The notes below the pieces were generated by a model that did no database searches, had not been told where the DNA came from, and saw only the letters and a program-made list of their open reading frames with translations. From a virus, in the IMG/VR virus record IMGVR_UViG_3300025122_000005, positions 124,001-188,000 of that record: DNA of 64,000 nt, one strand, 5' to 3'. Shown piece after piece: positions 22,812 through 42,718 of this stretch. Numbering within the stretch: the first letter of the stretch is position 1; the number at the start of each line of letters is the position of its first letter. A program made the translations under genes and the position numbers.

Positions 22812-25800
22812 TGTCTAGAGTAGATTTTTCAAAAGATGACATTATCGGAGATTTCTTGCCAAACGTGGGAATACGTAGAATCACGCTAGAGTCTGCTTCA
22901 GAAGAAGACATGGCAGTAATGGTAGACTTGGTCATCGACGACGTACTGGACGAAGATATCAAAAACGCCACCGCAAAAGCAGTTGATGAAGATTTAACTG
23001 TAGTCCGTCGTCAAATGGGTCGCGGCCGCCACGCAAGAAATATTGTAGTGGGGTCCAAATCATCCATGTCTGTAATAGACGAGGCTTTAAAGGTTTGTGT
23101 TGTGGTGGCAACAAGCGAAGCAGCGAATATAGTGATAAAAAGACTTTTTTCTCGACGAGGTCAGGTGGCAAATTTTCAAGATCGCTTAAGACAGATTACG
23201 TCAAGAGGGCTTGAATATTTGGAATCTTCCATCGCCCAAGCGATGCAGGGATTGGCGAATAGAAGGCAAGACATTTTATTTTTCCAAGACGGAGCTAGAC
23301 CTATTAGCGGCGAACAATACTATGCAGCTATAGCAGATCATCTTAAGGAATATGATACCGACGGCAACGAAGTACATAAACTTTATAAAACTTTTTCAAT
23401 GCCAGAAATAAAAAATGATGTTAATAGTTTGCACATTTATGCGTTTACTTTTATGGATTTTAATGTTTTTGACTTGGAGATGGATCCAAGTGAAATGACC
23501 TTTTTAAATAATACATATGGGAAACTGTCGTACAGCAAAGTTATAGAAAACGGATCGTTGAACCCTCACAGTATGGTTTTGTTAGATTCAAAAGGCACTC
23601 CTTGGTCTGGACCCTATCATGTCATGCAAGACGGGTCTTACATGAAGGGAAGGTTTCACGAAGCAGACGTTAATGACCCAGAACAGTATTTAGCAAGCCT
23701 TATGATTCCCAATGTTAAGGTTCAGGATTTTAGAAGGTTTCAGAGATCGGAAAAGGATACGTACTTACCAAAAACTTTACCGAGTTTTTTACAAGAGAAC
23801 AAAAGAGCAAAATACCTTAATAATATTCGAGCAAATCAGTTTAATGCAAGAGCAGAGATAGATCACGATCCTATCACTGGTCATGTTAGTCTTGAGTTTT
23901 TAGTAGATCAAGAACAAATATTTGTAAACAATTCTAAATATGGGCACCTTTATAACAATTTACCCAATCGTTCAAAATATAAGATAATGCGTTCTAGAGA
24001 TTATTTTAGATTGACTAACTTAAAAATTCTTAGAAGAAGAATGACTAAAAGAGATCTTGGAATTAATAGACTGGGATTCGGAGCAAAAGACATATTCGAC
24101 AGAGAAGTTCCAGAGTTTATAGTTGTCCAATCTGGCGAAAGACCATCAACTGCTTATCGAGCCAGCACATTTGATACAAATGACCTATTGGTGCCTCGTG
24201 AATCCAGTAATGGTTCAGTTTCGGACGAACCATTTGGCACTTTGGCTTGGGAAGTTTACGGGCACTTGACGACTTGGTTTCAAAATTCTCCTAGAACTCC
24301 TCTGCCTATTGCAAATGACGGGATGCCCCCGTTTCCTTTCTACAGAAATTTTATAGGAACAGACGAGTCCCTGGATAGTGTTTACGATGGAGTATATCAA
24401 TATGGTATTGAGTTATCGTATGAGGACGGATTAGAAAAATATTTACAGGAGATTCTTATTGTTCTCAGAGACCAAACAAAGCAACTAGAGAGATATTACA
24501 ATGAATGTTCTATCCCAGTTACTACGTCCAAATATTTTAGTAGATCCGGACTCTCTAGTCCGACTTCGGATGAGTTATATCCGGACTATAGAGAGAAAAA
24601 CGTTGAACGAACAGAAAGCAGGGGAAACTACAACCACATAACAAGAACCTTCGATCCTGCTTTTGTAAATTCTGCCAGACAAAGATATAGTTTCGTGGAA
24701 ATGGCAAGGGCATACTTTGAAGCAGTTAACGTTGTGTACGCTGACGCAATTTTTAGGATTGGAAATCTAAATCCTAGTGATTCTCCGAGGTTATCTGGAT
24801 TTAATCTCGACAATGTTGTAGCACTACTGAGACCTGAGAACTCTCGGCCGGAACAAATATTGGAGATTTTAAGATCATTCCAGGAATTACACGGATTACT
24901 GGAAGACATTTTAGACATAGATTTAATAAAAGACGCTTCCAATGTTAGGTTGACCCCATCGGAAGCAGGGTCTGCAGGTAGAAACCCCAGGATAATGAGG
25001 GTTAAGAAGTGGTTTTCCGAAGCGGATGACTTTGTAAGTGCCGATTTAAGATATTTACCAGTTGCAGCCCCAGGAATTTTTGATCTTATAGGGAAAGCTA
25101 CACAGATATCTGCTGTGGACGATGCTTCTGTTTTCGGGACGGACCTCGTGGGCAATACAGGCATAAGAGATTTGGGCCCCGATGTAGGCGACCTCGCAGC
25201 CGATGTGGAATTGCTTGACCAATTCACCGGACCGGGACCAGTGGAATATGAGATGGAGGACAGAACTGCGGTTACAACTGAGAAGGTAAGACTGGCTGCG
25301 GGAGGAAAGAATTACAGAGGTCGCCGCCGCCGTCGAGGGTCTCATCGCGTTACCAGCGAGCAGGTAAAAGAAATGTGGTTTCTGGAGGAAGATAAATTCG
25401 GGATTGACGCCGAATCGGATGGAAAAAAATTTAACAACGCACCAGCTGCTTTTACTATGAATTCATACAAGATGGGCAAAAACCAACCCACCTTTACTTT
25501 TGGGACTGGAACAGAAAATGGAGCAGAAGAGGACTTTATAATACAATATGAAAAGAAGTCATCCCGCCGCGGCGCACGCGGTAGAAAGAGGCGGTCTTCT
25601 GGAATTAGTGGAAAGCAGCTTGATATTATAGACAAGCACGTAGAATATACTCTTATTAATAAGAAGAAGAATGATAGTGGTAATTCAAATTTCTCTTCAT
25701 GGAGGACCGGACCACCCAAACCGATGAAAAACAAGGGAATCTCCGCTGCGGTCAACCAATCAATCTTGGACAAGATGGAAAAAAAGTTGAATATTGAATT

Positions 25801-26812
25801 AGTAACGGAAAATAATGGGGCGTACTTTGTAAGAAATCTTGACGAAATTATGGAGTCTAATAAGCGGAGTTTAGCGGATAAAATTCAAGACAGCATGAAG
25901 GTTCTTTGTGACGCAGTGGCGATTGAGGATAAAAACTTAATAGAGTTTATTCCGGACTTCTCCCCCGAGTCGGCTCCAGAGTTTGAGATTACGGATAGGG
26001 CGGTTATAATAACAGAGATGGTAAGAAAAGCATCAGTTGCTATGAGTGACAAATCGGAGATGGAGTCTAGGCAGATTAGGATTCCAAAAATAGAGAAAAT
26101 TTTGTCCAATAAGCCGTCTGTGCTGAAGACAGATGAGGAAAAAAACACCTTTAATCCGCCGGTTCAAATAAAGAAGTTGGCGGATGGAATAAAGCCAATT
26201 GGTGCAACAAACTTTAAGGCATCCAATACTTTGTTTGGAACGGTGCAGAAGATAAAGAAATTAGATGGATTTACAAAGGATGCATCGGGTAAACCGATCC
26301 TGTCAGCCCCCAAGTACAGGGATGTAAAGGTTTCGGAGGTTAAGGCAGGTCTCCCGCCTGGAAAATATAAGCTAGAAACGTTTGAGGATTCTAAATTGGG
26401 AATAGAGAAACCACCGGTCTCTACCGGCAAGAAGTTCTTTACAGTTGAGAAGCCCACCAACATTGAATCTAAATCAAAAAAGAAGATTCCGAAAGCTAAA
26501 TCAAACTTTGAACAAATAGAGAAGATGGCAAGAGATGTGGCACCATCTGGAATTAAGAGCAAGTCCGGACAAGTGATAAAGACGGGGTCTAAGATTCGTG
26601 CATCCAAGACTCCCATCGCGAATAAGAAAAAGGGAAGAAAAGGAAAGGTGAAGTTAGGAAAGTCTACCCCTCCTAGCCCCTTTAAGTCTTCTAGGGCAGC
26701 ACCAGCGATTACAGGAAGGGCGGCAGCTCCTCTTCGTGCTGCACCTGCAGGCGTTCCAGCGATGTCTCCGATGTCATTACCCTCCCCAGGCGGCGGCGGG
26801 AAGGGGTACTAA
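22811..26812 (+). CDS. Large virion protein (1,333 aa) with basic, Pro/Lys-rich tail
   Basis: I do not recognise a named domain. The first 900 residues look globular, with acidic N-terminal segments (DLVIDDVLDEDI) and many aromatic motifs. Two Arg-rich patches occur around 25316-25345 (GRRRRRG) and 25563-25592 (RRGARGRKRR). From about 26440 the chain becomes Lys/Ser/Pro-rich and ends in an Ala/Pro/Gly-rich region closing with GGGGKGY. The basic low-complexity tail may be disordered or bind nucleic acid or an acidic partner. It starts with a TAATG overlap and is followed by AAGGAG before the next gene. Baseplate or tail location is inferred from the operon. Confidence 0.6.
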   Translation: MSRVDFSKDDIIGDFLPNVGIRRITLESASEEDMAVMVDLVIDDVLDEDIKNATAKAVDEDLTVVRRQMGRGRHARNIVVGSKSSMSVIDEALKVCVVVATSEAANIVIKRLFSRRGQVANFQDRLRQITSRGLEYLESSIAQAMQGLANRRQDILFFQDGARPISGEQYYAAIADHLKEYDTDGNEVHKLYKTFSMPEIKNDVNSLHIYAFTFMDFNVFDLEMDPSEMTFLNNTYGKLSYSKVIENGSLNPHSMVLLDSKGTPWSGPYHVMQDGSYMKGRFHEADVNDPEQYLASLMIPNVKVQDFRRFQRSEKDTYLPKTLPSFLQENKRAKYLNNIRANQFNARAEIDHDPITGHVSLEFLVDQEQIFVNNSKYGHLYNNLPNRSKYKIMRSRDYFRLTNLKILRRRMTKRDLGINRLGFGAKDIFDREVPEFIVVQSGERPSTAYRASTFDTNDLLVPRESSNGSVSDEPFGTLAWEVYGHLTTWFQNSPRTPLPIANDGMPPFPFYRNFIGTDESLDSVYDGVYQYGIELSYEDGLEKYLQEILIVLRDQTKQLERYYNECSIPVTTSKYFSRSGLSSPTSDELYPDYREKNVERTESRGNYNHITRTFDPAFVNSARQRYSFVEMARAYFEAVNVVYADAIFRIGNLNPSDSPRLSGFNLDNVVALLRPENSRPEQILEILRSFQELHGLLEDILDIDLIKDASNVRLTPSEAGSAGRNPRIMRVKKWFSEADDFVSADLRYLPVAAPGIFDLIGKATQISAVDDASVFGTDLVGNTGIRDLGPDVGDLAADVELLDQFTGPGPVEYEMEDRTAVTTEKVRLAAGGKNYRGRRRRRGSHRVTSEQVKEMWFLEEDKFGIDAESDGKKFNNAPAAFTMNSYKMGKNQPTFTFGTGTENGAEEDFIIQYEKKSSRRGARGRKRRSSGISGKQLDIIDKHVEYTLINKKKNDSGNSNFSSWRTGPPKPMKNKGISAAVNQSILDKMEKKLNIELVTENNGAYFVRNLDEIMESNKRSLADKIQDSMKVLCDAVAIEDKNLIEFIPDFSPESAPEFEITDRAVIITEMVRKASVAMSDKSEMESRQIRIPKIEKILSNKPSVLKTDEEKNTFNPPVQIKKLADGIKPIGATNFKASNTLFGTVQKIKKLDGFTKDASGKPILSAPKYRDVKVSEVKAGLPPGKYKLETFEDSKLGIEKPPVSTGKKFFTVEKPTNIESKSKKKIPKAKSNFEQIEKMARDVAPSGIKSKSGQVIKTGSKIRASKTPIANKKKGRKGKVKLGKSTPPSPFKSSRAAPAITGRAAAPLRAAPAGVPAMSPMSLPSPGGGGKGY

Positions 26813-26824
26813 GGAGTATGAATA

Positions 26825-29800
26825 ATGTCTGAAGAAAATAACAACGGAAACAACAACTCTTGTGATCCGCCAGCGTATTGTCCTCCATGGCGTGCAGGTT
26901 GCACGCCGAGTCCTGGTTATATGGATGACCCACGGAATCACGTAGAACCTCTTCCGCCTGAGCCCACTCCGGTTGAAATAGAGAGAATACATCCAGCTTT
27001 GTTCTACGCCCAGCCTGAAGCAGACTTTGAAGAAATAGAAGAGGTTCACTCTGGACATAATTTTTCTGCTGGGAAAAGCAAGTGGTTAATAGACCCAAAT
27101 CTTCTTCCTGGTAATCAACATGACCCGATAGTTAAGTTTTTTCCGAAAAACCAGGATCCTCTTGCGGGCAATTCATACCCAGCGAATGTTCCTGCTCAGG
27201 ACATAGTGCACGAAGACTCTCACGGACCTGTAGATACTTTTAGATATGTAAGTGGAAAATTTTGGTTGCATCGTGGCCACGGCGAGGGCATCGTTTCTCC
27301 TGGTATACGGTTCCACTGGATTGCCAAGCCAAAATTCACATATTATAATTCTTCAAATACTTTATGTAGGGGATCTGGGCACACTTTAAGCAAAGCAGAC
27401 CCAAATGATGCTAGAATTCTTCCACAAGAAGTATGGATAAATTCTGATTGGGTATTAAATTCTTTAACGCCCCGCACCGAGATTGCGGGAGGACTGGACC
27501 TCCCAGTCTTTTATGAGTCGTTTAAAATTACATTCCCGCCACATCCTGAACCAGGAGGGTGGTCCTCGTGGAAGTGGAGAGATTACATGTACGGATTAGC
27601 AGGACATCTTTCAGAACTTGGTACATTGAGTCGTGCTGAGACCCTAGAATTCGGCCGAACTCATGCGAGGACCGATCCTAGGTTTTTACCATCTGGTCCG
27701 GATTCTTTACTCACCTGGCCCAATTGGGGCGACGCATCATATACAAAAAATTTGTTTCCGGTGATACCGTTTTTTGGAGATATGAGCCTGTGGGACGACC
27801 CTGACGGTGCTGCTTTTCGAGATCCGTCTTTTCGACCACCACACGCCGGAGGATTAATCTTCTTTGATCACGCTACAAACATCCCGGACTTCATGACAAA
27901 GGAAGAGCTAGAAGAGACAGATTTCAATCCAGGATTGTATTCGGATGTGAGAGGGGTTTATAATTTTTATGATTGTGTGTATGAAGAACTAATTTCTCCC
28001 AATTATACAGAAAACCGTCTTCCCAATTATTATAGGATGAGACCGGAAAAGAGGAATAAAAGGAATACCGTTACAGAGGAATACTTCCGGAAAAATATTG
28101 CAGAAAGTATGTCTGGGGACGAGGGAAGTAGACAGCAGGAAATTATCCGTCGCAAAGCAATAGAAAATTATGGAGTATTTGATCCAATTGGTCATCCTGT
28201 TGTTAATACATGGGATGTTTTTGAGAATCCGGGTTTGGAAGAATTTAAAACAATATATGATGAACGCCGAGTATTTCCAATGTACGCGGAAATTGAATTC
28301 ACATCTAACGAAAGATCTTTGTTTGTAGAATCTCTAGAGATGGGATCAGAGAAGAATTTTATGGGAGAGATAATGACACCCCTTGCAAGAACTTCGAATG
28401 GTGGTGGATCCGTGAGAGACAGGATGCTAGTAAAAACGCTTCCAATGAAGGTTGTTACACAATTTTTGGGCGGCGGCACCGGGAAATCTGAACGCCGCCG
28501 CGCCAGAACGTGGGGAATTGGATCTTTATCTACAGATAAGACGCATTCTATGTCGGATGTTTTTAAGCATAACGTGAGATCTATGTCTTTAGAAACGTGG
28601 ATGCAATGGTTAAACCAGGAAGAAGAGGCAATTCAAGAAGAGGAGGGCACTGCGGTATCCCCACAAGATAAGTTTAGAAGTTTAATTGGTAAAATCGTTA
28701 TAAAATCTAGGATTAAGCAAACAATTGAACAAACTTATAGAGAGAAATTTACGCAAGTATTAAACGGAAAACCCGCACATTCTGAAATATTGGCATATAG
28801 GGTAGAAAAACTTTTGAATGGTACTCCAATACAGAATTTCTTTTTCGCAACAAGTAATGATGTAGAGATAATCAGATACTTAGACAGTCAGGTTGAATAC
28901 GGGAAACAATATTCTTATAGGGTTCATGCCATATCTTTAGTGGTAGGAACAAAATATGCGTATGTTGATTGTATGACTGACGCTGCAGTTGAGAATTTCT
29001 ATAATCAATCCCGTGACCCCCGTAGAATTTCAGAAATGTTTTTCGGAGTTATACACAAGCCAAGCGTTCTAGTTGTGGAAGTCCCGATGCAAGAAAGAAG
29101 CATAACAATCATCGACAAACCCCCAATACCTCCGGACATTAATATAATCCCTTTCAGGGGAGATAAAAATAGAGTGTTATTTAATTTGAACGGGACAACT
29201 GGAGAAATGGCCGCAAAACCAGTGGTACTAGAGGAAGACGATTACGGACAGTTTAGTACTGTCGTGGCATCTCAGAATCCGGGCACCACCGACGTTTCGA
29301 AGGAATCCCTTCCGAACCAAATAATACACTTTCGAAATGATGACCCAGTTAAAATATTTGAGATTTTTAGGACTGATGAGGAACCGACATCGTGGGAGTC
29401 ATTTTTTGATAAAAAGATAAAAAGGATAGAATCAGAGGCCACAAATGCTTCGCATGTTGACGTGATAAGTCCGAATAAAAAATATTATTATGCATTTAGA
29501 ACAGAAGATATCCACGGTCATCCATCCAACCCTTCTCACATTTATCAGGTGGAATTGGTGGCTGATGATGAGATGACGTTCTTGAAGATGGATATTTTCA
29601 ATTTTAAAGAAGAGATTGAACCTAGAAAGATGTCCTTTGACCATAAAATAGAAATCTCACCATCGTCCTTGCAAAGGGTGCTTCCGATGCCATCGAACGG
29701 CAGTTTAGAAACTTGGGATGCAGAAGGTCAACCAGTTGGGGATGTTGGTACTGCCGAAAATCCACGCGAAACATTGTGGGGTAAGCAGTTTAAATGTCGA

Positions 29801-30998: not shown

Positions 30999-32294
30999 AT
31001 GGCTACAACTTTCAAGACATTTCTCAACAGCGATATCGTAACAACAAAGACTCTACTTCATGAGGCTATTCCCATTACTGGTGCGATAGTGTCAGGGACA
31101 TACAACAGGGACGGGAGTCTTGGGACAGAATTAAATATTAAAAATTATTCCCATAAGATGTTCCAGTCTGTTTATGATTATCCATATCTGAGTTCTTCTG
31201 CGAATCATATATTCGACATTACTGCTGGTTACTCTACTGGCTCTGTCCTGTCTGGAAACGTTAAGCAAGTAGCCAGAACCGATCAAGAAAAGAAGATTCA
31301 AATTTATAATCAGATGGCACAAGTTTTGATGGGTCACGATAAAGACGGAAACATTAGAGCATTTGACCAAGACGGCGATGTAACCGGCAACCCAAAGACA
31401 GGAAAGATTCACGAAGCGTTTTTCGTTAATTTCGCTCGCCTTCTCACAAAGGATGAGATAAAGAAGGGGTCCTTCAATATGAAGATAGGTGTTTCGCCTC
31501 ATTACGGAAATCCTGCTTCTCCTGAAGAAACTCACGGCGACTTGCGAAAATATGCTGGACGGTATATTACAATCGCAGACACCAACGCTGCTAACGAATA
31601 TAGAATCAACTCACCAGCGGGTGAATACGGCATACTATCAGCCTCTTCTGGCGGTACTGCTAACGCTATAGTCGCCCCAATTGCGCACGGTTTGACGACC
31701 GGTTCAAGCCACCCAACTTTGCCAGGAAACATTGGTTTGATATTTTATCAAGCAGGCATAGCCGTATTAGATGCTAGAATGTTTGCTAGAGCAAGCCACG
31801 ACGGCGGCGGACCCGCTGGAGTCAGGCAGGTGACGGCTTCATCCGGAGTAGTCTATCACTTGACAGGCGGCATACTTAACTCTGCTAGCTGTATGATGCA
31901 TAGGCAAATCGCAGATTCTGCCACGAGTGACATAACAGCATTGGCTCACTCTGATGTCTATTCTCTATTTACAGGATCTTCCATTCAAACAGCTTGTGAT
32001 TCTTTGCGACATAGGATACTTAATGTCTCATTTAATAACTCTACAGAGCTTAACTCAACAGTGTATTTCTGTAGAGCACATCACAATGAATTCAACTACA
32101 GCTCTAACCCAACTTATTTAACGGAGAGTCAAGTCAGGGTCAAGAATGTTCCAAGCGACATGCCTGTAAGTTACATTACTACAGTTGGATTGTACTCGCC
32201 AGATAACGAATTGTTAGCGGCGGCAAAGGTCTCAGAACCTTTGAGAAAAGATCCGACCAACGAACTAACTTTAAGAGTTAGGTTGGATTATTAA
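30999..32294 (+). CDS. Virion structural protein, first of a C-terminally related pair
   Basis: The 431-residue product has a mixed N-terminal half (YNQMAQVLMGHDKDG, FFVNFARLLTKDEI) and a C-terminal domain with SSNPTYL, then YITTVGLYSPDNELLAAAKVS and ending LTLRVRLDY. The next gene ends with the same pattern, so the pair shares a C-terminal domain. I have the impression, without a search, that similar proteins are annotated as structural in T4-like cyanophages. AAGG lies upstream of the ATG. Role inferred: outer baseplate or fibre connector. Confidence 0.6.
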   Translation: MATTFKTFLNSDIVTTKTLLHEAIPITGAIVSGTYNRDGSLGTELNIKNYSHKMFQSVYDYPYLSSSANHIFDITAGYSTGSVLSGNVKQVARTDQEKKIQIYNQMAQVLMGHDKDGNIRAFDQDGDVTGNPKTGKIHEAFFVNFARLLTKDEIKKGSFNMKIGVSPHYGNPASPEETHGDLRKYAGRYITIADTNAANEYRINSPAGEYGILSASSGGTANAIVAPIAHGLTTGSSHPTLPGNIGLIFYQAGIAVLDARMFARASHDGGGPAGVRQVTASSGVVYHLTGGILNSASCMMHRQIADSATSDITALAHSDVYSLFTGSSIQTACDSLRHRILNVSFNNSTELNSTVYFCRAHHNEFNYSSNPTYLTESQVRVKNVPSDMPVSYITTVGLYSPDNELLAAAKVSEPLRKDPTNELTLRVRLDY

Positions 32295-32300
32295 AGTGAT

Positions 32301-33566
32301 ATGCCATATTATAGATTCAAATCAGGAGATTTGCTCTACAATAGGATAAAGACCTTTCCTCAACAAAACTTTGTAATCTTTGATTCAAAGGTTTATATAA
32401 GCGGGTTTAAAAATTCTAAAGCAAAATTCAACAACGTCAATGCAACAACTCAGGGGTACCTAAGTCTTTATGAGCTGAACGTCGATAGAGCCATCGACCA
32501 GTCTGGAGCCCCTCCGGGTAGCGGATCTATCTTTCCTTTTGTGACAAAGGGGGGAGCAAGAACAGCGTTTAGGACGATAAGCACCAGCGAATTTGACAGT
32601 CTAGACCAATATTCTTATGGAGATACTATAAAGGGCAAGTACCCTTTGACATCTAGTATTAAAAGAACATACTTTGCGTCAGTTGGTGCTTCAACTGTTG
32701 ATGTAACTGAGGATATTGGCTCGTTTAAAAAGCTTACCGGTAATAGAAAATATATTACAGCGTTGAAAAACACTTTTGATAAGTATACTCACTTAAGCGA
32801 GCATTATGCTTTCAACACTTCGTCTACAAACTTAAAGGGCGTCAATTGGGATAAGGGAACCCAGGAAATGTCCCTTATTGAGATTCCATCTATTTTTTAT
32901 GGATCCTCGATAAAGAAGGGGTCGGTAGCTCTTAAATTCTACGTAACGGGAACATTGGCCGCCGAACTAAGAGACACGAAAAGAAATGGAGAACTTATAC
33001 AGGTATCGGGAACGTATAACGCCTCGACTGATGATGGTAAGGTGGCAGGAGTTGTGTTATATAACGAAGGGTTTTTGGCACTAACTGGGTCCTGGGACAT
33101 CAACGATGCTTTCACGGACAAATATATAGGCAGCGATTCTTATACCCCAAAATGGAAATACTTTGGAGTTGGAACAAATGATGGCACTGCCGCAGGAGTT
33201 TTGACCGGGTCAACTTTTGTAATCGATTTCGAAGGAGTGAATTACGTTCCAACAATAACAATGTTAACACACGCGCCAAAAGGGGTTCTAAACAATTCTT
33301 CTAACCCAACATACATTAAAAAAGGACAGCATACTAATCCCTCTACTTCAAGTGTTCACTTCGAAGAATACGATAAGGTGGAAATAAAAAATCTAGAACA
33401 TACTCCGTATTCAGATCCAACCGGATCATTTAAAAAGCAAACATATATATCGAAGATCGGAATATATGATGAAAATAGAAATCTTATCGCTATAGCAAAA
33501 TTAGCGAACCCCGTCAGAAAGACTGAGGACCGAGAATATACTTTTAAAATAAAGCTAGATTTTTAA
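32301..33566 (+). CDS. Virion structural protein, second of a C-terminally related pair
   Basis: The 421-residue product ends with SSNPTYI, then YISKIGIYDENRNLIAIAKLA, P-V-RK and FKIKLDF, matching the C-terminus of the gene just upstream. The N-terminal portion (MPYYRFKSGDLLYNRIK) is different. The ATG lies six bases after the upstream stop with only a weak Shine-Dalgarno sequence, so expression is probably coupled to the neighbour. Tail or baseplate role is inferred from the operon. It is the last structural gene before the nucleic-acid block. Confidence 0.6.
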   Translation: MPYYRFKSGDLLYNRIKTFPQQNFVIFDSKVYISGFKNSKAKFNNVNATTQGYLSLYELNVDRAIDQSGAPPGSGSIFPFVTKGGARTAFRTISTSEFDSLDQYSYGDTIKGKYPLTSSIKRTYFASVGASTVDVTEDIGSFKKLTGNRKYITALKNTFDKYTHLSEHYAFNTSSTNLKGVNWDKGTQEMSLIEIPSIFYGSSIKKGSVALKFYVTGTLAAELRDTKRNGELIQVSGTYNASTDDGKVAGVVLYNEGFLALTGSWDINDAFTDKYIGSDSYTPKWKYFGVGTNDGTAAGVLTGSTFVIDFEGVNYVPTITMLTHAPKGVLNNSSNPTYIKKGQHTNPSTSSVHFEEYDKVEIKNLEHTPYSDPTGSFKKQTYISKIGIYDENRNLIAIAKLANPVRKTEDREYTFKIKLDF

Positions 33567-33567
33567 A

Positions 33568-34179
33568 ATGTCCGCCAAGCATCGGCAAGAGTTCGAATTG
33601 CTAATATTGCAGGCCAGATATCTCAGAGCACAATTAGAAGTAGACAAAAAAACCTATGAAGAGTCCCAAAAATCTTTTTCTGAATCTTTTAATCAACGAG
33701 TGAAAGAGATATTAACAAAGGAACAGAGAGAGAGTTTAGAAAAAGTATCAAAGAAGAAGGAAATTAAAAAAGAAAAAGTACCCAATGATAAAATTAAGCA
33801 AGAAAGAAAGGTACATCATCCGGAAAGTATAAAGAAGATCTATAAGGGAATAGCGAGAAGATCACACCCCGACAAGCTTGTAAACATTCCAGAAGTGGAA
33901 GCAAATATCAAAAAACAATTATTTAGAGAAGCACAGAGTGCAATGGAGAAACAGGACTTTTTGAATTTATTTGATATTGCAAGAGTCTTGGATGTTGAAC
34001 TACCAGAACCAGAAGAAGGTCAAATCGACACGCTCGAAAAGAACATAAAAGACATAAAAAATGAAATAAAACAAATAAAAGAGACATCAGCTTGGCATTG
34101 GTATCACTCTTTGGATGAAAAAAAGGATGAAATTATGGTAAGATATATACAGCATGTATATGAAAGTCACATAAAATGA
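33568..34179 (+). CDS. J-domain (DnaJ-like) coiled-coil protein
   Basis: Residues 86-140 of 203 read as the second half of a J domain: helix II (SIKKIYKGIARRS), the invariant HPD tripeptide at residues 100-102, then a helix ending FREAQSAMEKQDFLNLFDIARVL. J domains recruit and stimulate the Hsp70 DnaK. The flanking regions are long charged helices, with KE-rich coiled coil at residues 25-80 and again after residue 150. No Gly/Phe or zinc-finger region of full DnaJ is present. It starts one base after the preceding stop and overlaps the RuvC-like gene (ATGA). It likely couples host DnaK to virion assembly or DNA metabolism; which one is not shown. Confidence 0.7.
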   Translation: MSAKHRQEFELLILQARYLRAQLEVDKKTYEESQKSFSESFNQRVKEILTKEQRESLEKVSKKKEIKKEKVPNDKIKQERKVHHPESIKKIYKGIARRSHPDKLVNIPEVEANIKKQLFREAQSAMEKQDFLNLFDIARVLDVELPEPEEGQIDTLEKNIKDIKNEIKQIKETSAWHWYHSLDEKKDEIMVRYIQHVYESHIK

Positions 34180-34715
34180 TATTAGGATTAGATGTTTCTA
34201 CGAGTATAACGGGGGCGACCCTTCTAGACGAAAATGGCGAGATAGTTTTTTGTGAGGCTTGGGATATGAGGGACAAGAAGCGTTTTAAGGATTTGTTTGA
34301 TAAGGCGAGCGGTATCCGTTTGTGGCTCTTGGAGATAGCACTCAGACATAAAGTGAAAAAGATATACATAGAAGAACCGTTCATGTTTTTTAACTCTGGT
34401 GGGTCTTCCGCTAAAACAATGTCAACTTTGCAGACATTCAACGGGATGGTTTCTTGGGCAGCGTTTAGAATGCTAGGTGTGAAGCCAGAATATTTCAAGG
34501 CAACAGCTGCAAGGAAAATATGTGGCATTAAGGTTTCTCGCGGAGAGAAGGCAAAAGAAAAAGTATTGAAGTTTATCCTTGACAACATACCTGATTTTGA
34601 GGTAGAATATACTAAGTTTAATAATCCAAAGCCCGGTGTTTATGACCGAGCAGATAGTTGGGTTATCGCAAAATCGGGACTAATCACGTGGAAAGAGAAA
34701 AACTCGGAATCTTAA
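34176..34715 (+). CDS. RuvC-like Holliday junction resolvase/nuclease
   Basis: The 179-residue product has the RuvC/RNase H-like layout. Strand 1 carries GLDVSTSITG (Asp6), the end of strand 4 gives IYIEEPF (Glu66/Glu67), and the last helix has YDRADSWVIA (Asp157/Asp160). These acidic residues would bind two metal ions for cutting branched DNA. Length matches RuvC (about 170 residues). T4 uses a different fold (endonuclease VII) for this task, so this may substitute for it in clearing branches before packaging. Start overlaps the preceding stop (ATGA). The downstream primase overlaps its end. Confidence 0.8.
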   Translation: MILGLDVSTSITGATLLDENGEIVFCEAWDMRDKKRFKDLFDKASGIRLWLLEIALRHKVKKIYIEEPFMFFNSGGSSAKTMSTLQTFNGMVSWAAFRMLGVKPEYFKATAARKICGIKVSRGEKAKEKVLKFILDNIPDFEVEYTKFNNPKPGVYDRADSWVIAKSGLITWKEKNSES

Positions 34716-35614
34716 AAGATATCCTTGGCAGGTACTACCAGTCGGGGTCAGAACATCTTTTTAAATGCCCTAAATGCCAACATGAAAAGAGAAAACTTTC
34801 CATTAACTTAGACAAGGGTGTTTTTAAGTGTTGGGTCTGTGATTATTCTGGACTCAAAATAGCAAATCTTGTTAAAAGATATGGAACCCTGTCCAGTCAT
34901 TCGAAGTGGGCTGAGATAGACGGTAGTGTTGATATTTCGTCTTTCGAAGATTTATTCCTTTCACCAGCCGTCCCAGAGAGGGATGAGGTTTCTCTTCCGG
35001 AATCTTTCGTTACTTTAACGGGTCGTGACAAATCATTTAATTCTAGGCACGCGCACTCTTATTTAAGATCTCGTGGCATAACAAGGAAGGACATTTTGAG
35101 ATGGAAGATAGGGTATTGCCCCGACGGAGAATATTCGGGCAGGATCTGCATTCCTTCCTTTGATGAGAGCGGTGATTTAAATTACTTTATAGCCAGGTCA
35201 TACGGGAAGCAATTTCCCAAATATAAGAACCCGCCAGTAAGTCGTGATATCGTATTCAACGACTTGTATGTAGATTGGGATGCTCCTATAGTGTTAGTGG
35301 AGGGTGTCTTTGATGCAATTGTAGCAGACAATGCTGTCCCCATATTGGGCTCGACTCTCAAAGAAGGTTCAGCGTTGTTTGAGAAAATCGTGAGGAATAA
35401 GGCGACGGTATATATGGCTCTAGACCCGGATGCAGCAGAGAAAGAGAAAAGAATAATTAATTCTCTTCTGGAATATGATATAAAGGTACATAAGATAGAC
35501 GTTTCTCCTTATGAAGATGTTGGAAGCATGACAAAAGCAGAATTCGACAGGAGAAAGAAAGAATCTACCATTATTGATTCGATACACTATTTATATCAGT
35601 GTTTAAAGTTTTAG
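34688..35614 (+). CDS. DnaG-type DNA primase (zinc finger plus TOPRIM)
   Basis: From GTG at 34688 the protein is 308 residues. A zinc-binding domain has CPKC (Cys27, Cys30) and CWVC (Cys48, Cys51). A TOPRIM domain follows, with LVEGVFDAI around residue 204 and LDPDA around residue 245, the acidic metal-binding motifs that support RNA primer synthesis. No helicase domain is fused. The frame extends up to a TTG at 34658, but the conserved part begins at EREKLGILKDILG, so I prefer GTG 34688; no strong Shine-Dalgarno decides between them. It overlaps the end of the RuvC-like gene by 28 bases, implying coupling. Confidence 0.85.
   Translation: MEREKLGILKDILGRYYQSGSEHLFKCPKCQHEKRKLSINLDKGVFKCWVCDYSGLKIANLVKRYGTLSSHSKWAEIDGSVDISSFEDLFLSPAVPERDEVSLPESFVTLTGRDKSFNSRHAHSYLRSRGITRKDILRWKIGYCPDGEYSGRICIPSFDESGDLNYFIARSYGKQFPKYKNPPVSRDIVFNDLYVDWDAPIVLVEGVFDAIVADNAVPILGSTLKEGSALFEKIVRNKATVYMALDPDAAEKEKRIINSLLEYDIKVHKIDVSPYEDVGSMTKAEFDRRKKESTIIDSIHYLYQCLKF
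35587..35596 (+). promoter_or_regulatory. Possible CTATTTA element inside the primase 3' end
   Basis: CTATTTATAT lies within the last codons of the primase, 43 bases before the ATG of the next small gene. It matches the element found in intergenic gaps, but being in coding sequence (residues Tyr-Leu-Tyr) it may be chance. Confidence 0.2.
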
Positions 35615-35846: not shown

Positions 35847-35872
35847 ATAAGTTAAGAAGCATTGGAGGTTAC

Positions 35873-38800
35873 ATGCGTTTTGCGCATATTGCGGACACAC
35901 ACATCAGGAATCTGAAATATCATTTTGAATATCGAGAAATTTTTAAGCAACTTTATTCTTCCCTAAAGGAAGAAAACGTCGATTATATTATTCATTGCGG
36001 CGATATCGCTCATACGAAGACACAAATATCACCAGAATTTGTTGATCTGTGCCGTGATTTCTTTGAGAATTTAAGCAATATTGCTCCGACTTATATAATT
36101 TTAGGGAATCATGACGGCAATTTACGTAATAGTAGTAGGCAAGATGCTTTAACTCCGATTGTTAAAGCATTAAAATCTCCCAATCTTCACCTAATTAAGA
36201 ATGCCAGAGAAGTTGTTTTGGATGAGAATTTTTGTTTAAATATTCTTTCTGTTTTTGATGAGGAAAATTGGATAAAACCGACGAATACTGAAATGATTAA
36301 TATTGCTCTTTATCATGGGGCGATAGATAAGTCTAAGACTGACTTAGACTGGACATTGGGGGGTGATCATGATATTGGGATCTTTGATAATTTTGATTTC
36401 GCTTTGCTTGGCGATATCCACAAGACGCAGAATCTAGACAAGGAGGGTCGTGTATGGTATGCTGGATCAACAGTCCAGCAGAACTTTGGAGAATCACTAG
36501 ATAAGGGATATTTACTTTGGGACATCGAAGATAAAGAAACGTTTACTACACGTCATATTGCATTTGATAATCCAAAGCCGTTCATTACCATTCCTCTTAC
36601 CAAGAAGGGCAATTTGCCTAGAAAGATAAGCGTTCCGTCTGGAGCACGTTTAAGAATCGTTTCTGATAATAATGTTTCTTTGGATAAGATGAGAAAAGCG
36701 GTAGAAATCATTAAGTACAGACACAATCCAGAATCTGTGACCTATCTTAACCGCGCCGCTGGGCAAAAGATATCTTTAGAATCTGCTTCGGGATTTGCGA
36801 AGAAGGACCTGAGAGACATAAAGACACAAGAGGACTTAATAAAGGATTATCTTAAAGATTTTCAAGTTTCAGAAGAAGTGTTAAACAGGGTGCTGGACTT
36901 AAACTCAAAGTATAATAAAGATATTGAACGCCAAGAAGACACTTATCGCAATATAAGCTGGAGTTTAAAGTCGCTTGAATGGGATCATCTCTTTAATTAC
37001 GGCGAAGGTAACAGGATAGATTTTTCGAAATTAGAGGGTATTGTTGGGATTTTTGGAAAAAACTTTTCAGGCAAGTCGTCAATTGTTGATTCTCTCTTGT
37101 ACGCTCTTTACAATTCTTCTTCGAAGTCTGTTCGTAAAAATCTTAACATTATTAACCAAAATAAGGACAAGTGCTTATCACGCGCCACTCTAGAGATTGA
37201 TAACACGATTTATTCTGCTGAAAGAACATCTGAGAAGTATATTAAAAAACTTAAGGGCGAAGAAACCTTGGAAGCTAAAACAAATTTAGAATTTAGTTCT
37301 GTGGATTTGCTGGGAAACGTAACAAGCTTGAACGGCACATCCCGCCAGGATACCGACAAGAATGTTAGAAAATATTTTGGGTCAATTGATGATTTTTTGC
37401 TGACATCTATGTCAAGCCAACTGGACTCTCTTGCGTTTATAAACGAGGGGTCTACAAAAAGAAAAGAAATTTTAGCGAAGTTCCTTGACTTGGAGATATT
37501 TGAAAAGAAATTTAAGATGGCAAAAGAGGATAGCTCTCTGACTAAAGGTGCTCTTAAAAAGCTAGAAGATATAGATTATGAATCTTTGATAGAGGAAGTA
37601 AAGAATAAGATTATCAAAAGTGAACTAGCGATTGTTAGGAATAAGGCAATTTGCGAGACCCTCCAAGAAGACACCGCAGATATGGGGGAAGAAATAAAGT
37701 CTTTGCAGGAAAAGATAGATTCTGTACCGGCGGAAATAATTGATATTGTTTCTTTGAAGGAGAAAATAAGAAATAAAAAAAGTAATATTAAAAGTATTTC
37801 AAATAACCAAAATATTAAGGAGGAAAAGCTAAAGGATGATCAATCACTTTATTTAAAAATGGAAGATTTTTTGAAGGACTTTGATATTGCTGAATGTTTG
37901 GAGCAAAAGGACCTTTACGAAGAAAAGGAAGAGCAGCTCTCTAATTTTCTTTCGGAGATGAAGCGGAAGTCGGAAAAGCTGAACACATATCACGACAAAG
38001 AGAGACTCTTACAGGAGGTTCCATGTGGTTCTGAGTACTCTCATTGTAAGTTTATAAAGGATGCTTACAAGGCGATTGATTTAATACAGATTTCGCAAAG
38101 AAGCATAAAGGATACTTCTATTAGCATTAATAACACAGGCGCAGAGATAAGAAAGATTGATTATAAGAAGATAGAAGAGCATATTGACAAATACAATCAG
38201 CTTTTAGACAAGAAAAACATTACTGCGAATAGAATGGCAGATTTGCAAGTCGAAATGGCCAAAGGCAAAACTGCCCTAATCCAGGCAAATGTTTTTTTGA
38301 AAGATCTTTTGGAAAAGGAAAAAGATTACGAAGACAATCGCGAGGTGATTGAAAATTTAGAAATTCTAATAAAAAAGAGAAACGAAATTAAAAGGTCCCT
38401 CTCCAAAAAGGAGAAGGAATATAAAGAATGTTATGAGGATACCTTGTCTTTTCACAAATCTCACGGCTCTCTAGAGGAAAGATTAAAACTATTAGGCGAA
38501 CAACAGGCGGAATACAAAACGTTAGCAACAGACTTTGCAGCTTATGATCTTCTTATGACTTGTTCTCATGCAAACGGTATTTCGTATGATATTATTAAGG
38601 AGCGGCTACCCATCATAAATCAGGAGATCGCTAAAATATTAACTAATATTGTTGAGTTTGAGATTTTTATTCAAAACGATGATAAAAAGTTGGATATCTT
38701 CATAAAGCATCCAAAACACGACCCGCGACCATTAGAAATGGGCTCCGGAGCTGAAAAGACGATTGCTTCAATGGCTATTCGTTTAGCTTTCTTAACTGTG

Positions 38801-39013
38801 TCGAGTTTACCAAAATCGGACCTATTTATATTAGACGAACCTGGTACTGCTTTGGATGAAGAGAACATGGAAGGATTTGTCAGGATTCTAGATATGGTTA
38901 AGGGGTATTTTAAAACTGTGCTTCTCATTTCCCATCTGGATACCCTCAAAGACTGTGTGGACATGCAAATAAGTATCGAGAGAAAATCTGGTTTTGCTCA
39001 TGTCAACGTATAG
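35873..39013 (+). CDS. Fused recombination endonuclease: gp47-like nuclease joined to gp46-like ATPase (SbcD-SbcC / Mre11-Rad50 type)
   Basis: The single 1,046-residue chain holds both subunits normally made separately. Residues 1-330 carry metallophosphoesterase motifs: ADTH (8-10), GDIAH (Asp44), LGNHD (His80), a YHG motif near 147 and LGDIHKT near 180. A linker with a helical capture region follows. The ATPase starts around 380, with Walker A GKNFSGKSS around 395. Long coiled coils flank an apex at about 717 with Cys-x6-Cys (PCGSEYSHCKF) instead of the classical CxxC zinc hook. Signature GSGAEKTIASM (about 957), Walker B LFILDEPG (about 984) and an H-loop ISHLD close the domain. Expected role: processing of double-strand ends for recombination-dependent replication. 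Confidence 0.9.
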   Translation: MRFAHIADTHIRNLKYHFEYREIFKQLYSSLKEENVDYIIHCGDIAHTKTQISPEFVDLCRDFFENLSNIAPTYIILGNHDGNLRNSSRQDALTPIVKALKSPNLHLIKNAREVVLDENFCLNILSVFDEENWIKPTNTEMINIALYHGAIDKSKTDLDWTLGGDHDIGIFDNFDFALLGDIHKTQNLDKEGRVWYAGSTVQQNFGESLDKGYLLWDIEDKETFTTRHIAFDNPKPFITIPLTKKGNLPRKISVPSGARLRIVSDNNVSLDKMRKAVEIIKYRHNPESVTYLNRAAGQKISLESASGFAKKDLRDIKTQEDLIKDYLKDFQVSEEVLNRVLDLNSKYNKDIERQEDTYRNISWSLKSLEWDHLFNYGEGNRIDFSKLEGIVGIFGKNFSGKSSIVDSLLYALYNSSSKSVRKNLNIINQNKDKCLSRATLEIDNTIYSAERTSEKYIKKLKGEETLEAKTNLEFSSVDLLGNVTSLNGTSRQDTDKNVRKYFGSIDDFLLTSMSSQLDSLAFINEGSTKRKEILAKFLDLEIFEKKFKMAKEDSSLTKGALKKLEDIDYESLIEEVKNKIIKSELAIVRNKAICETLQEDTADMGEEIKSLQEKIDSVPAEIIDIVSLKEKIRNKKSNIKSISNNQNIKEEKLKDDQSLYLKMEDFLKDFDIAECLEQKDLYEEKEEQLSNFLSEMKRKSEKLNTYHDKERLLQEVPCGSEYSHCKFIKDAYKAIDLIQISQRSIKDTSISINNTGAEIRKIDYKKIEEHIDKYNQLLDKKNITANRMADLQVEMAKGKTALIQANVFLKDLLEKEKDYEDNREVIENLEILIKKRNEIKRSLSKKEKEYKECYEDTLSFHKSHGSLEERLKLLGEQQAEYKTLATDFAAYDLLMTCSHANGISYDIIKERLPIINQEIAKILTNIVEFEIFIQNDDKKLDIFIKHPKHDPRPLEMGSGAEKTIASMAIRLAFLTVSSLPKSDLFILDEPGTALDEENMEGFVRILDMVKGYFKTVLLISHLDTLKDCVDMQISIERKSGFAHVNV

Positions 39014-41131: not shown

Positions 41132-42718
41132 ATGTCTTTCCAGTTAACCAAGAAGGAAATAATGCGGGAGATTGTTAAGTGTGGCAAGGATCCTGTTTAT
41201 TTCATTAATAGCTACGCTCGCATTACCCATCCACAAAAAGGGCTAATTCCGTTTCATTTATATGATTTTCAAGAAGATTTGGTTGAGGACTTCCTAGACA
41301 ATCGTTTTAACGTCATTTTAAAAGCCAGACAATTAGGAATATCTACAATAACTGCTGCTTATGTCGTTTGGATGATGCTCTTCCATAGAGAAAAGAACGT
41401 TCTCGTTATCGCAACTAAATTCTCAACTGCATCCAATTTAGTGAAAAAAGTTAAAAATATTTTAAAAAATATACCAGAATGGTTAACTATCGCACACGTT
41501 ACAATTGACAACAGAACTTCTTTTGAGTTGTCAAACGGGTCTCAAATAAAGGCATCTTCAACTAGTGGTGACGCTGGACGGTCAGAGGCTCTTTCTTTAT
41601 TGGTTGTAGATGAGGCCGCTCACGTAGACGGATTAGACGATCTTTGGACTGGGCTGTATCCCACTCTTTCTACTGGCGGCCGCTGTATCGCCCTATCAAC
41701 ACCAAATGGTGTTGGCAATTGGTTTCACAAAGCTTATATGGAGGCGGAGCAGTCAATCAACGATTTTAAATCAACTAAACTTCCGTGGGATAGGCACCCG
41801 GATAGAGATAGAACGTGGTTTGAAAAAGAAACGAGAAATATGTCCAGACGCGAAATCGCACAAGAATTAGAATGTAATTTTAATATGTCTGGAGAGACTG
41901 TCTTTCATGGAGAGGACATTGCCTGGGTAGAAAACATGGTAAGAGAACCCAAGTATAGAACTGGGTTTGATAGAAATTATTGGATTTGGGAAGAGTATAA
42001 GCACGATAGTGATTATATGATAAGTGCCGATGTGGCACGAGGTGATGGAAGAGACTATTCAGTTTTTCATCTTATTAAGTTGGCGACAATGGAGATCATC
42101 GCAGAATATCAGGGAAAAGTAACGCCCGATGTCTTTTCAGATGTTTTGTTGAATGCTGGAAAAGAGTACGGCAGCTGCATGATAACAGTGGAAAACAATT
42201 CGGTAGGATATTCTGTTTTAGAGAAGCTTAGAGAAAAGAATTATCCCAATATTTACCACTCGATAAAATCTACCCATGAATACATAGACCAGATACAGGC
42301 AGAAAATAAATCAAATGCCGTCGCAGGATTCACCACTTCTTCTAAAACTAGACCATTAGTTATCGCTAAGATGGAGGAATTCGTAAGGAACAAACTAATT
42401 AAAATATATTCTGCGCGTCTTCTTAATGAAATGAAGACTTTTATATGGAATAACGGCAAACCTGAAGCAATGAGAAGCTATAATGATGATCTGGTTATGG
42501 CATGCTCAATTGGTTGTTGGATAAGGGATACTGCATTGGTGGAAAATCAGAGAAACACGGAATATAAAAAAGCTTGTCTGGATTCTATGATTGTAACGAA
42601 TTCTAGACTGGATACTACAATTCCAGGTCAAAATAGCTATAAAAATAAGAGCATATTTGATAAAATAGAGAAAACAAAGAGTCAATACGAACAATTTCCG
42701 TGGCTCTTCAAAGGATAA
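41132..42718 (+). CDS. Terminase large subunit (gp17-like ATPase-nuclease)
   Basis: The 528-residue protein has the two terminase domains. The N-terminal ATPase has a variant Walker A LKARQLGIST (residues 63-72, T4-like with Gln-Leu-Gly), Walker B LLVVDEAAH (156-164, Asp160/Glu161) and motif III CIALSTPNG (185-193). The C-terminal nuclease is RNase H-like: ISADVARGDGRDYS (Asp300), MITVENNSVGY, and a late NDDLVMA. It would pump DNA into the prohead through the portal and cut concatemers. It lies immediately before the portal gene, as in T4-like packaging modules. Confidence 0.95.
   Translation: MSFQLTKKEIMREIVKCGKDPVYFINSYARITHPQKGLIPFHLYDFQEDLVEDFLDNRFNVILKARQLGISTITAAYVVWMMLFHREKNVLVIATKFSTASNLVKKVKNILKNIPEWLTIAHVTIDNRTSFELSNGSQIKASSTSGDAGRSEALSLLVVDEAAHVDGLDDLWTGLYPTLSTGGRCIALSTPNGVGNWFHKAYMEAEQSINDFKSTKLPWDRHPDRDRTWFEKETRNMSRREIAQELECNFNMSGETVFHGEDIAWVENMVREPKYRTGFDRNYWIWEEYKHDSDYMISADVARGDGRDYSVFHLIKLATMEIIAEYQGKVTPDVFSDVLLNAGKEYGSCMITVENNSVGYSVLEKLREKNYPNIYHSIKSTHEYIDQIQAENKSNAVAGFTTSSKTRPLVIAKMEEFVRNKLIKIYSARLLNEMKTFIWNNGKPEAMRSYNDDLVMACSIGCWIRDTALVENQRNTEYKKACLDSMIVTNSRLDTTIPGQNSYKNKSIFDKIEKTKSQYEQFPWLFKG

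Follow-up and report, generated by a model that had tools for sequence, protein, structure and literature searches.

In this study, we analyzed a 64,000-nucleotide stretch of viral DNA (positions 124,001 to 188,000 of IMG/VR record IMGVR_UViG_3300025122_000005; hereafter the window), and found that one of its genes, carried by a marine phage of the T4 superfamily, encodes, with a probability that we put at about 0.86, an SbcCD-type Mre11-Rad50 enzyme made as a single chain, whose dimeric state, activity and role we infer. That this gene is a true gp47-gp46 (Mre11-Rad50) fusion, as a sequence-only reading of the same DNA had claimed, was supported by a 1046-codon open reading frame (ORF) that carries the nuclease at its N-terminus and the ATPase at its C-terminus in one frame, with neither a stop nor a frameshift between 35873 and 39013. 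The gene and its start signal are located as follows:

35873..39013, + strand: fused Mre11-Rad50 (gp47-gp46, SbcD-SbcC) gene, 1046 aa, ATG start
35864..35868, + strand: Shine-Dalgarno sequence GGAGG, 4 nt upstream of the ATG of the fusion gene

A GGAG-type site also preceded the start codon of the fused gene in most relatives inspected, and the same coding sequence was present on four further IMG/VR contigs, each with at most one mismatch over the 3141 nt. Pfam searches matched metallophosphoesterase PF00149 to residues 1-152 (4.7e-13) and the Rad50/SMC ATPase PF02463 (SMC_N) to residues 365-581 plus the C-lobe (2.8e-14), with AAA_23 also matching from residue 365. Among PHROGs, the protein matched both the SbcC (8.4e-46) and SbcD (3.7e-26) families, and its sequence matches in the PDB were Mre11/SbcD for the N-terminus and archaeal Rad50 for the C-terminus. 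All of the nuclease and ATPase motifs that the sequence-only reading had quoted were found and proved conserved when 80 fused sequences were aligned. At the level of sequence, the fusion, its domain order, the intact catalytic and ATPase motifs, their conservation, the single copy and the neighbouring genes are established.

The protein was modelled with AlphaFold2 from an alignment of 33 sequences (mean pLDDT 79.8, pTM only 0.48), and the model matched the PDB folds of MRN Rad50 and Mre11/SbcD. The chain was divided into the following parts:

35873..36577, + strand: Mre11-type metallophosphoesterase domain, residues 1-235, from Pfam and PHROG matches and alignment to T4 gp47 and E. coli SbcD
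36578..36760, + strand: capping domain, residues 236-296, from the predicted structure and fold matches to the Mre11/SbcD nuclease and capping domain
36761..36808, + strand: predicted flexible segment between the capping domain and the helix-loop-helix, residues about 297-312, with the lowest pLDDT
36809..36934, + strand: helix-loop-helix, the putative Rad50-binding domain of Mre11, residues 313-354, predicted helices 316-330 and 334-354
36935..36955, + strand: fusion junction, residues 355-361, from model and alignment
36956..37552, + strand: Rad50 N-lobe, residues 362-560, with Walker A GKNFSGKS at 395-402 and a basic patch KRK at 529-531 at the base of the coil
37553..38020, + strand: outgoing coiled coil, residues about 561-716, from predicted helices
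38021..38056, + strand: coil apex PCGSEYSHCKFI, with C718 and C725 in a hook-like C-x6-C arrangement in place of the canonical CxxC
38060..38566, + strand: returning coiled coil, residues about 730-898, from the model
38579..39010, + strand: Rad50 C-lobe, residues 903-1046, with signature SGAE at 958-961, Walker B LFILDEP at 984-990, D-loop and H-loop (H1021)

A capping domain followed by a helix-loop-helix, which membership of the Mre11/SbcD family demands, was found in the predicted structure, and Rad50 strand 1 began in the model at residue 362, after a connector of about seven residues (355-361). In the same model, the outgoing coil spanned residues 541-715 and the returning coil residues 726-898. 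The model of a sister-clade protein contained two matching helices (323-336 and 343-358), with Rad50 strand 1 starting from residue 371. No indels between conserved residues were found across the junction among 77 relatives, and R359, N360 and W363 were invariant in our alignment (A1). The short linker that the sequence-only reading had placed at residues 320-380 did not hold up: this region corresponds to the predicted helix-loop-helix with which Mre11 grips Rad50 and to the first Rad50 strand, and its indel-free spacing speaks against a loose tether. The flexible stretch at about residues 296-312 sits where unfused Mre11 has its natural linker (PMC13402864). The end of Mre11 and the start of Rad50 were estimated in 2011 to lie about 28 Angstrom apart, which 9-12 residues would join (PMC3175470); the 7 joining residues of the window protein and the roughly 12 of the sister clade are close to this estimate, the fold and junction geometry being those predicted by the models.

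It appears very unlikely that two products are made in practice, either because an internal start adds a free Rad50 portion to the full-length chain or because proteolysis cuts the chain in two, in which case the subunit ratio would not be fixed. The predicted disorder of residues 296-312 means that this stretch could be cleaved. On the other hand, internal initiation, which the sequence-only reading had named as a threat to its own claim, gained no support at the junction. No ATG codon was present at residues 290-400, and a Shine-Dalgarno sequence was absent from both GTG codons of the junction region (GTG336 and GTG340), which aligned with start codons in just 30% and 19% of relatives, respectively. 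Start codons with a Shine-Dalgarno sequence were no commoner in the junction stretch (19/77) than in other windows of the gene (4-62%), and extra codon conservation at the junction was not detected. An internal start at this site was rejected for want of a candidate start codon. With neither separate copies nor any sign of internal initiation, a 1:1 ratio of the two activities would be built into the fused chain. Thus, the earlier proposal of a fixed ratio stood as far as it relied on one chain, no separate copies and no internal-start signal, and fell where it described the tether as a short flexible linker at 320-380.

In the nuclease half, all five metallophosphoesterase motifs of Mre11/SbcD proteins (D-x-H, GDxxx, GNHD/E, H and G(H/D)xH) were present, with motif V in the form GDxH. 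The metal ligands are D8, H10, D44, N79, H148, D181 and H183, and the catalytic residue is H80; D8, H10, D44, N79, H80, H148 and H183 were invariant in all 80 aligned fused sequences, and residue 181 was Asp in 79 of them. This Asp181 replaces the motif V histidine (Pfu H206), which alignment showed to be retained in the T4, cyanophage, SPO1-like and E. coli enzymes. The same Asp has been reported for Mimivirus R555 (PMC3175470). It marks the fused clade, though GDxH was also found in one T5-like SbcD encoded by a separate gene. With D181 in place of the histidine, metal preference or activity could differ, and the substitution, together with its counterpart in R555, lends some weight to a different role, namely that of an SMC-like clamp or a structural tether for DNA ends, with a nuclease half that is weakly active or regulatory. 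We consider such a role very unlikely, because the invariance of the other ligands and of H80, the conservation of the Asp and the occurrence of GDxH in the T5-like enzyme suggest that selection maintains a functional metal site.

The ATPase half contained Walker A, signature, Walker B, D-loop and H-loop divided by a long coiled coil, which is the arrangement that defines Rad50/SbcC proteins. Walker A GK400-401 and Walker B DE988-989 were present in all 80 aligned fused sequences, and the signature SG(A)E (958-961) was almost invariant. The CxxC zinc hook, also expected of Rad50/SbcC proteins, was absent from the window protein (C718-x6-C725) and present in other members of the fused family. 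Since the homology of the head is not in doubt, we filed the window protein as a Rad50 homologue with a divergent, putatively zinc-binding apex; given its C-x6-C spacing, zinc-mediated joining of the coil tips is not certain. The Pfam hook model PF04423 was uninformative as a detector, as E. coli SbcC also fell below it and T4 gp46 reached it weakly.

The search for other fused homologues, which had been suggested from the sequence, returned many, both in IMG/VR and in a few deposited phage genomes. An IMG/VR scan with the fused protein yielded 310 relatives, 80 of which were fetched; a single fused ORF was present in 82 of the first 85 loci inspected, and scans seeded with the Mel-JY01 and huge-phage proteins added about 30 fused loci. 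Loci were also picked by the neighbouring primase and large terminase (TerL), which avoids selection by the fusion gene itself, although some of these contigs overlap those found with the fusion: 70 of 80 primase-ascertained loci were fused, the other 10 stopping at or near a contig edge, and all 27 TerL-ascertained loci with at least 6.9 kb upstream were fused. No separate gp46/gp47 pair was found among the primase- and TerL-ascertained loci. Separate gp46 or gp47 genes were likewise absent from the 190,183-base virus record, whose sole metallophosphoesterase and sole SbcC match both lay in the fused ORF, and separate gp46/gp47 genes from nine other large virus records.

The fusion is rare in deposited phage genomes, where 2 of 724 matching records (Mel-JY01 and LR756508) covered over 80% of the query; LR756501 and Listeria phage LMTA-57 likewise carry fused ORFs. 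Among plasmids, no relative covered 80% of the query. A host or chromosomal copy was rejected, the two genome-contig matches being a 24-kb MAG contig of probable phage origin and a phage piece attached through Ns to a WOR-3 MAG chromosome. The latter piece (L141, CP070664.1, about 906-908 kb) carries the fused gene within the so-called chromosome, is linked to it by runs of N, and is probably a scaffolding error. Interrupted fused genes were observed in three relatives: a TGA after residue 198 in L025, a frameshift in L139 and an inserted ORF in L002. In the last of these, a 484-kb phage, a homing-endonuclease-like ORF (L002:8665-9582) splits the gene just past the active-site motif GDIHKRQ; a group I intron was rejected for L002 and L139, as no Rfam match was obtained. 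The possibility that the window fusion is an assembly or frameshift artefact uniting two adjacent genes is negligible and, for the fusion family, already refuted. The comparable single ORF of LMTA-57, which nests with separate-gene relatives, shows that such cases call for checking, but here the same ORF recurs on four other contigs, the homologous junction is free of indels in the 77 relatives, and fusion was universal at the TerL-ascertained loci with room upstream.

To place the fusion among known systems, a tree of the nuclease and ATPase heads was built, in which the window, Mel-JY01 and huge-phage lineages formed one clade (bootstrap 100, SH-aLRT 99) apart from the pairs of T4, cyanophages, T5-like and SPO1-like phages, Lak phages, Leptospira phage LE1, a Moorella phage and E. 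coli; E. coli was the sole representative of the cellular clades, and long branches limit inference on deeper relations. The proposed comparison with the separate gp46/gp47 of phage relatives thus set T4 and the other separate pairs outside the fused clade. Neither Flavobacterium immuto phage nor RM378, the cultured phages closest by capsid, had a detectable Mre11-Rad50, and therefore no recent split/fused comparison exists. In Flavobacterium immuto phages, an annotated exonuclease (L158:7938-8720) lies right after the primase, at about the place of the fusion in the window.

Viral fusion of Mre11 and Rad50 is itself already published: a 2011 study reported twelve fusions in addition to Mimivirus R555, named Bacillus phage 0305phi8-36 as the one phage case, and located many homologues of R555 on marine scaffolds that resemble phage DNA, with primase genes nearby (PMC3175470), which reduces the novelty of the window fusion. 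Like R555-type proteins, the window protein has Mre11 N-terminal and Rad50 C-terminal in a single ORF, lies outside the canonical cellular clades, as represented by E. coli, and is accompanied by no separate viral copies. The best full-length match of its model among viral structures was a 1379-aa Tupanvirus DNA repair protein (rank 1); fusions from other giant viruses and from some phages came next. R555 and its giant-virus counterparts (Tupanvirus, Harvfovirus and Catovirus) share the single-chain domain order with the window protein; the motif V Asp is common to R555 and the window protein, and the helix-loop-helix is retained. By its published description, R555 is longer (1351 aa, versus about 1050 aa in the window family, which has a shorter coil), and in contrast to R555-type carriers, the window comes from a tailed phage whose capsid and terminase are of the T4 type.

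T4 gp46/gp47 are the same two enzymes with the same motifs, the basic patch at the coil base and a setting with UvsX and a gp32-like SSB; unlike the window protein, they are encoded by two genes, have GHFH at motif V and a CPTC hook, fall outside the fused clade, and lie beside the clamp and clamp-loader genes, whereas the window fusion lies beside primase, RuvC and TerL genes. E. coli SbcCD and archaeal and eukaryotic Mre11-Rad50 have similar folds and catalytic machinery, but consist of separate subunits with a CxxC hook and the motif V His (checked in E. coli). Fused proteins are also encoded by Microcystis phage Mel-JY01 (PP395634) and the uncultured huge phage LR756501, both within the fused clade, and by the uncultured huge phage LR756508; Mel-JY01 has its primase just upstream, as in the window, and the gene of LR756508 is split by an inserted ORF. 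These three share about 22-30% identity with the window protein, and their lineages have CxxC hooks. The 1009-aa recombination exonuclease of Listeria phage LMTA-57 also combines nuclease and ATPase in a single ORF, but groups with the separate-gene Herelleviridae (SPO1-like) pair (100/100), and it may be either an independent fusion or a sequencing artefact. LMTA-57 has one ORF (L005:3908-6934) where phage P100 has three (gp45-47; L103:2587-5618), with a length difference of about 2 bp that would reflect a frameshift or a sequencing error.

Analysis of the genome context revealed three conserved neighbours:

34176..34715, + strand: RuvC-like Holliday-junction resolvase
34658..35614, + strand: DnaG-like primase, directly upstream of the fusion
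41132..42718, + strand: T4-type large terminase, downstream of the fusion

The order RuvC, primase, fusion, terminase was kept in most relatives. The record encodes a gp23-type capsid protein and the T4-type terminase, together with UvsX, a gp32-like SSB, a DnaB helicase, a 5'-3' exonuclease and ribonucleotide reductase. Outside the window, the record (G000) carries a bacterial-type DNA polymerase III alpha subunit (23157-26603), alongside its T4-type capsid and terminase, and a full-length GroEL chaperonin gene (31503-33068; TIGR02348 just over cut-off). A short adenylosuccinate synthetase (70296-71312; PHROG 1211, '2-aminooxy adenylosuccinate synthetase', with the PurZ model below cut-off) and an IMP dehydrogenase/GMP reductase (27282-28331) point to a possible modified-purine pathway, and a long run of sugar-metabolism-like genes (about 93000-116700) includes a NeuB-family synthase and a carbamoyltransferase.

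According to our proposal, the chain would run from a two-metal nuclease and its cap through the helix-loop-helix and the 7-residue connector to Rad50 strand 1, then out along the coil to its cysteine apex, and would return along the coil to the remaining half of the head. Two fused chains, supplying two nucleases and two ATPases, would be the equivalent of the canonical Mre11(2)Rad50(2) complex and would form it without a separate assembly step. ATP would dimerise the heads, the nuclease would lie beneath them, anchored to the coil root through its helix-loop-helix, and the tips of the coils would join. In Mre11-Rad50, the nuclease site is concealed while ATP keeps the heads together and becomes accessible upon hydrolysis, after which the 3'-5' nuclease acts on DNA ends (PMC13402864). 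Except at motif V, where Asp stands in place of His, and at the altered apex, the fusion has all the residues that this cycle requires. With UvsX and a gp32-like SSB encoded by the phage as well, the most likely role, by analogy with T4 gp46/47, is to process ends for recombination-dependent replication: the enzyme would process DNA ends into 3' single strands for the phage UvsX, which would feed recombination-dependent genome replication, and it may perhaps also degrade host DNA.

The canonical Rad50 hook is CxxC and was termed absolutely conserved in a 2026 T4 paper (PMC13402864). The C-x6-C apex (PCGxxFPxCxFI) was found in the window protein and in the majority of its clade, the remainder having CxxC, and well-supported branches of a heads-only tree force at least five changes of apex type. 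Pairs with 94-97% identical heads had apex regions 54-94% identical (mean 66%) when of the same type and 37% when of different type. For example, L028 has 95% head identity to L036 yet the other apex type, and its coil is closest to that of L015; apex types also differ between L008 and the window protein and between L045 and L072, the heads in these sets (L028/L036/L015 included) being 81-95% identical. Exchange of the apex by recombination is likely, but not proven, since the coil evolves fast in all members of the fused family and some pairs may be assembly chimeras. The hinge of MukB, an SMC-type protein, is able to replace the hook of fission yeast Rad50 (PMC6969161), so that apex swaps are tolerable in principle. 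The C-x7-C apex of Moorella phage MTATph1, which lies outside the fused clade, indicates that spaced apices are not limited to fusions. No description of C-x6-C-type hooks or of apex switching was found in the open-access literature searched, which is weak evidence of absence. Tentatively, and at somewhat less than even odds, we regard the apex as a cassette exchanged between near-identical heads, probably by recombination, with C-x6-C serving as a second zinc (or other) clasp; switching may stop pairing with the Rad50 of co-infecting phages or of the host.

Our results provide the full genomic context for the viral Mre11/Rad50 fusions reported in 2011, and reveal fusion as the rule within one large group of marine, uncultured phages of the T4 superfamily. 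In this family, Mre11 and Rad50 come naturally as one chain of about 120 kDa whose junction is short and indel-free, which would be handy for structural studies of the concerted motion of the helix-loop-helix, the coil root and the ATPase head. Less expected than the fusion itself is the repeated change of zinc-clasp type among close relatives, which represent natural chimeras for probing the role of the zinc hook.
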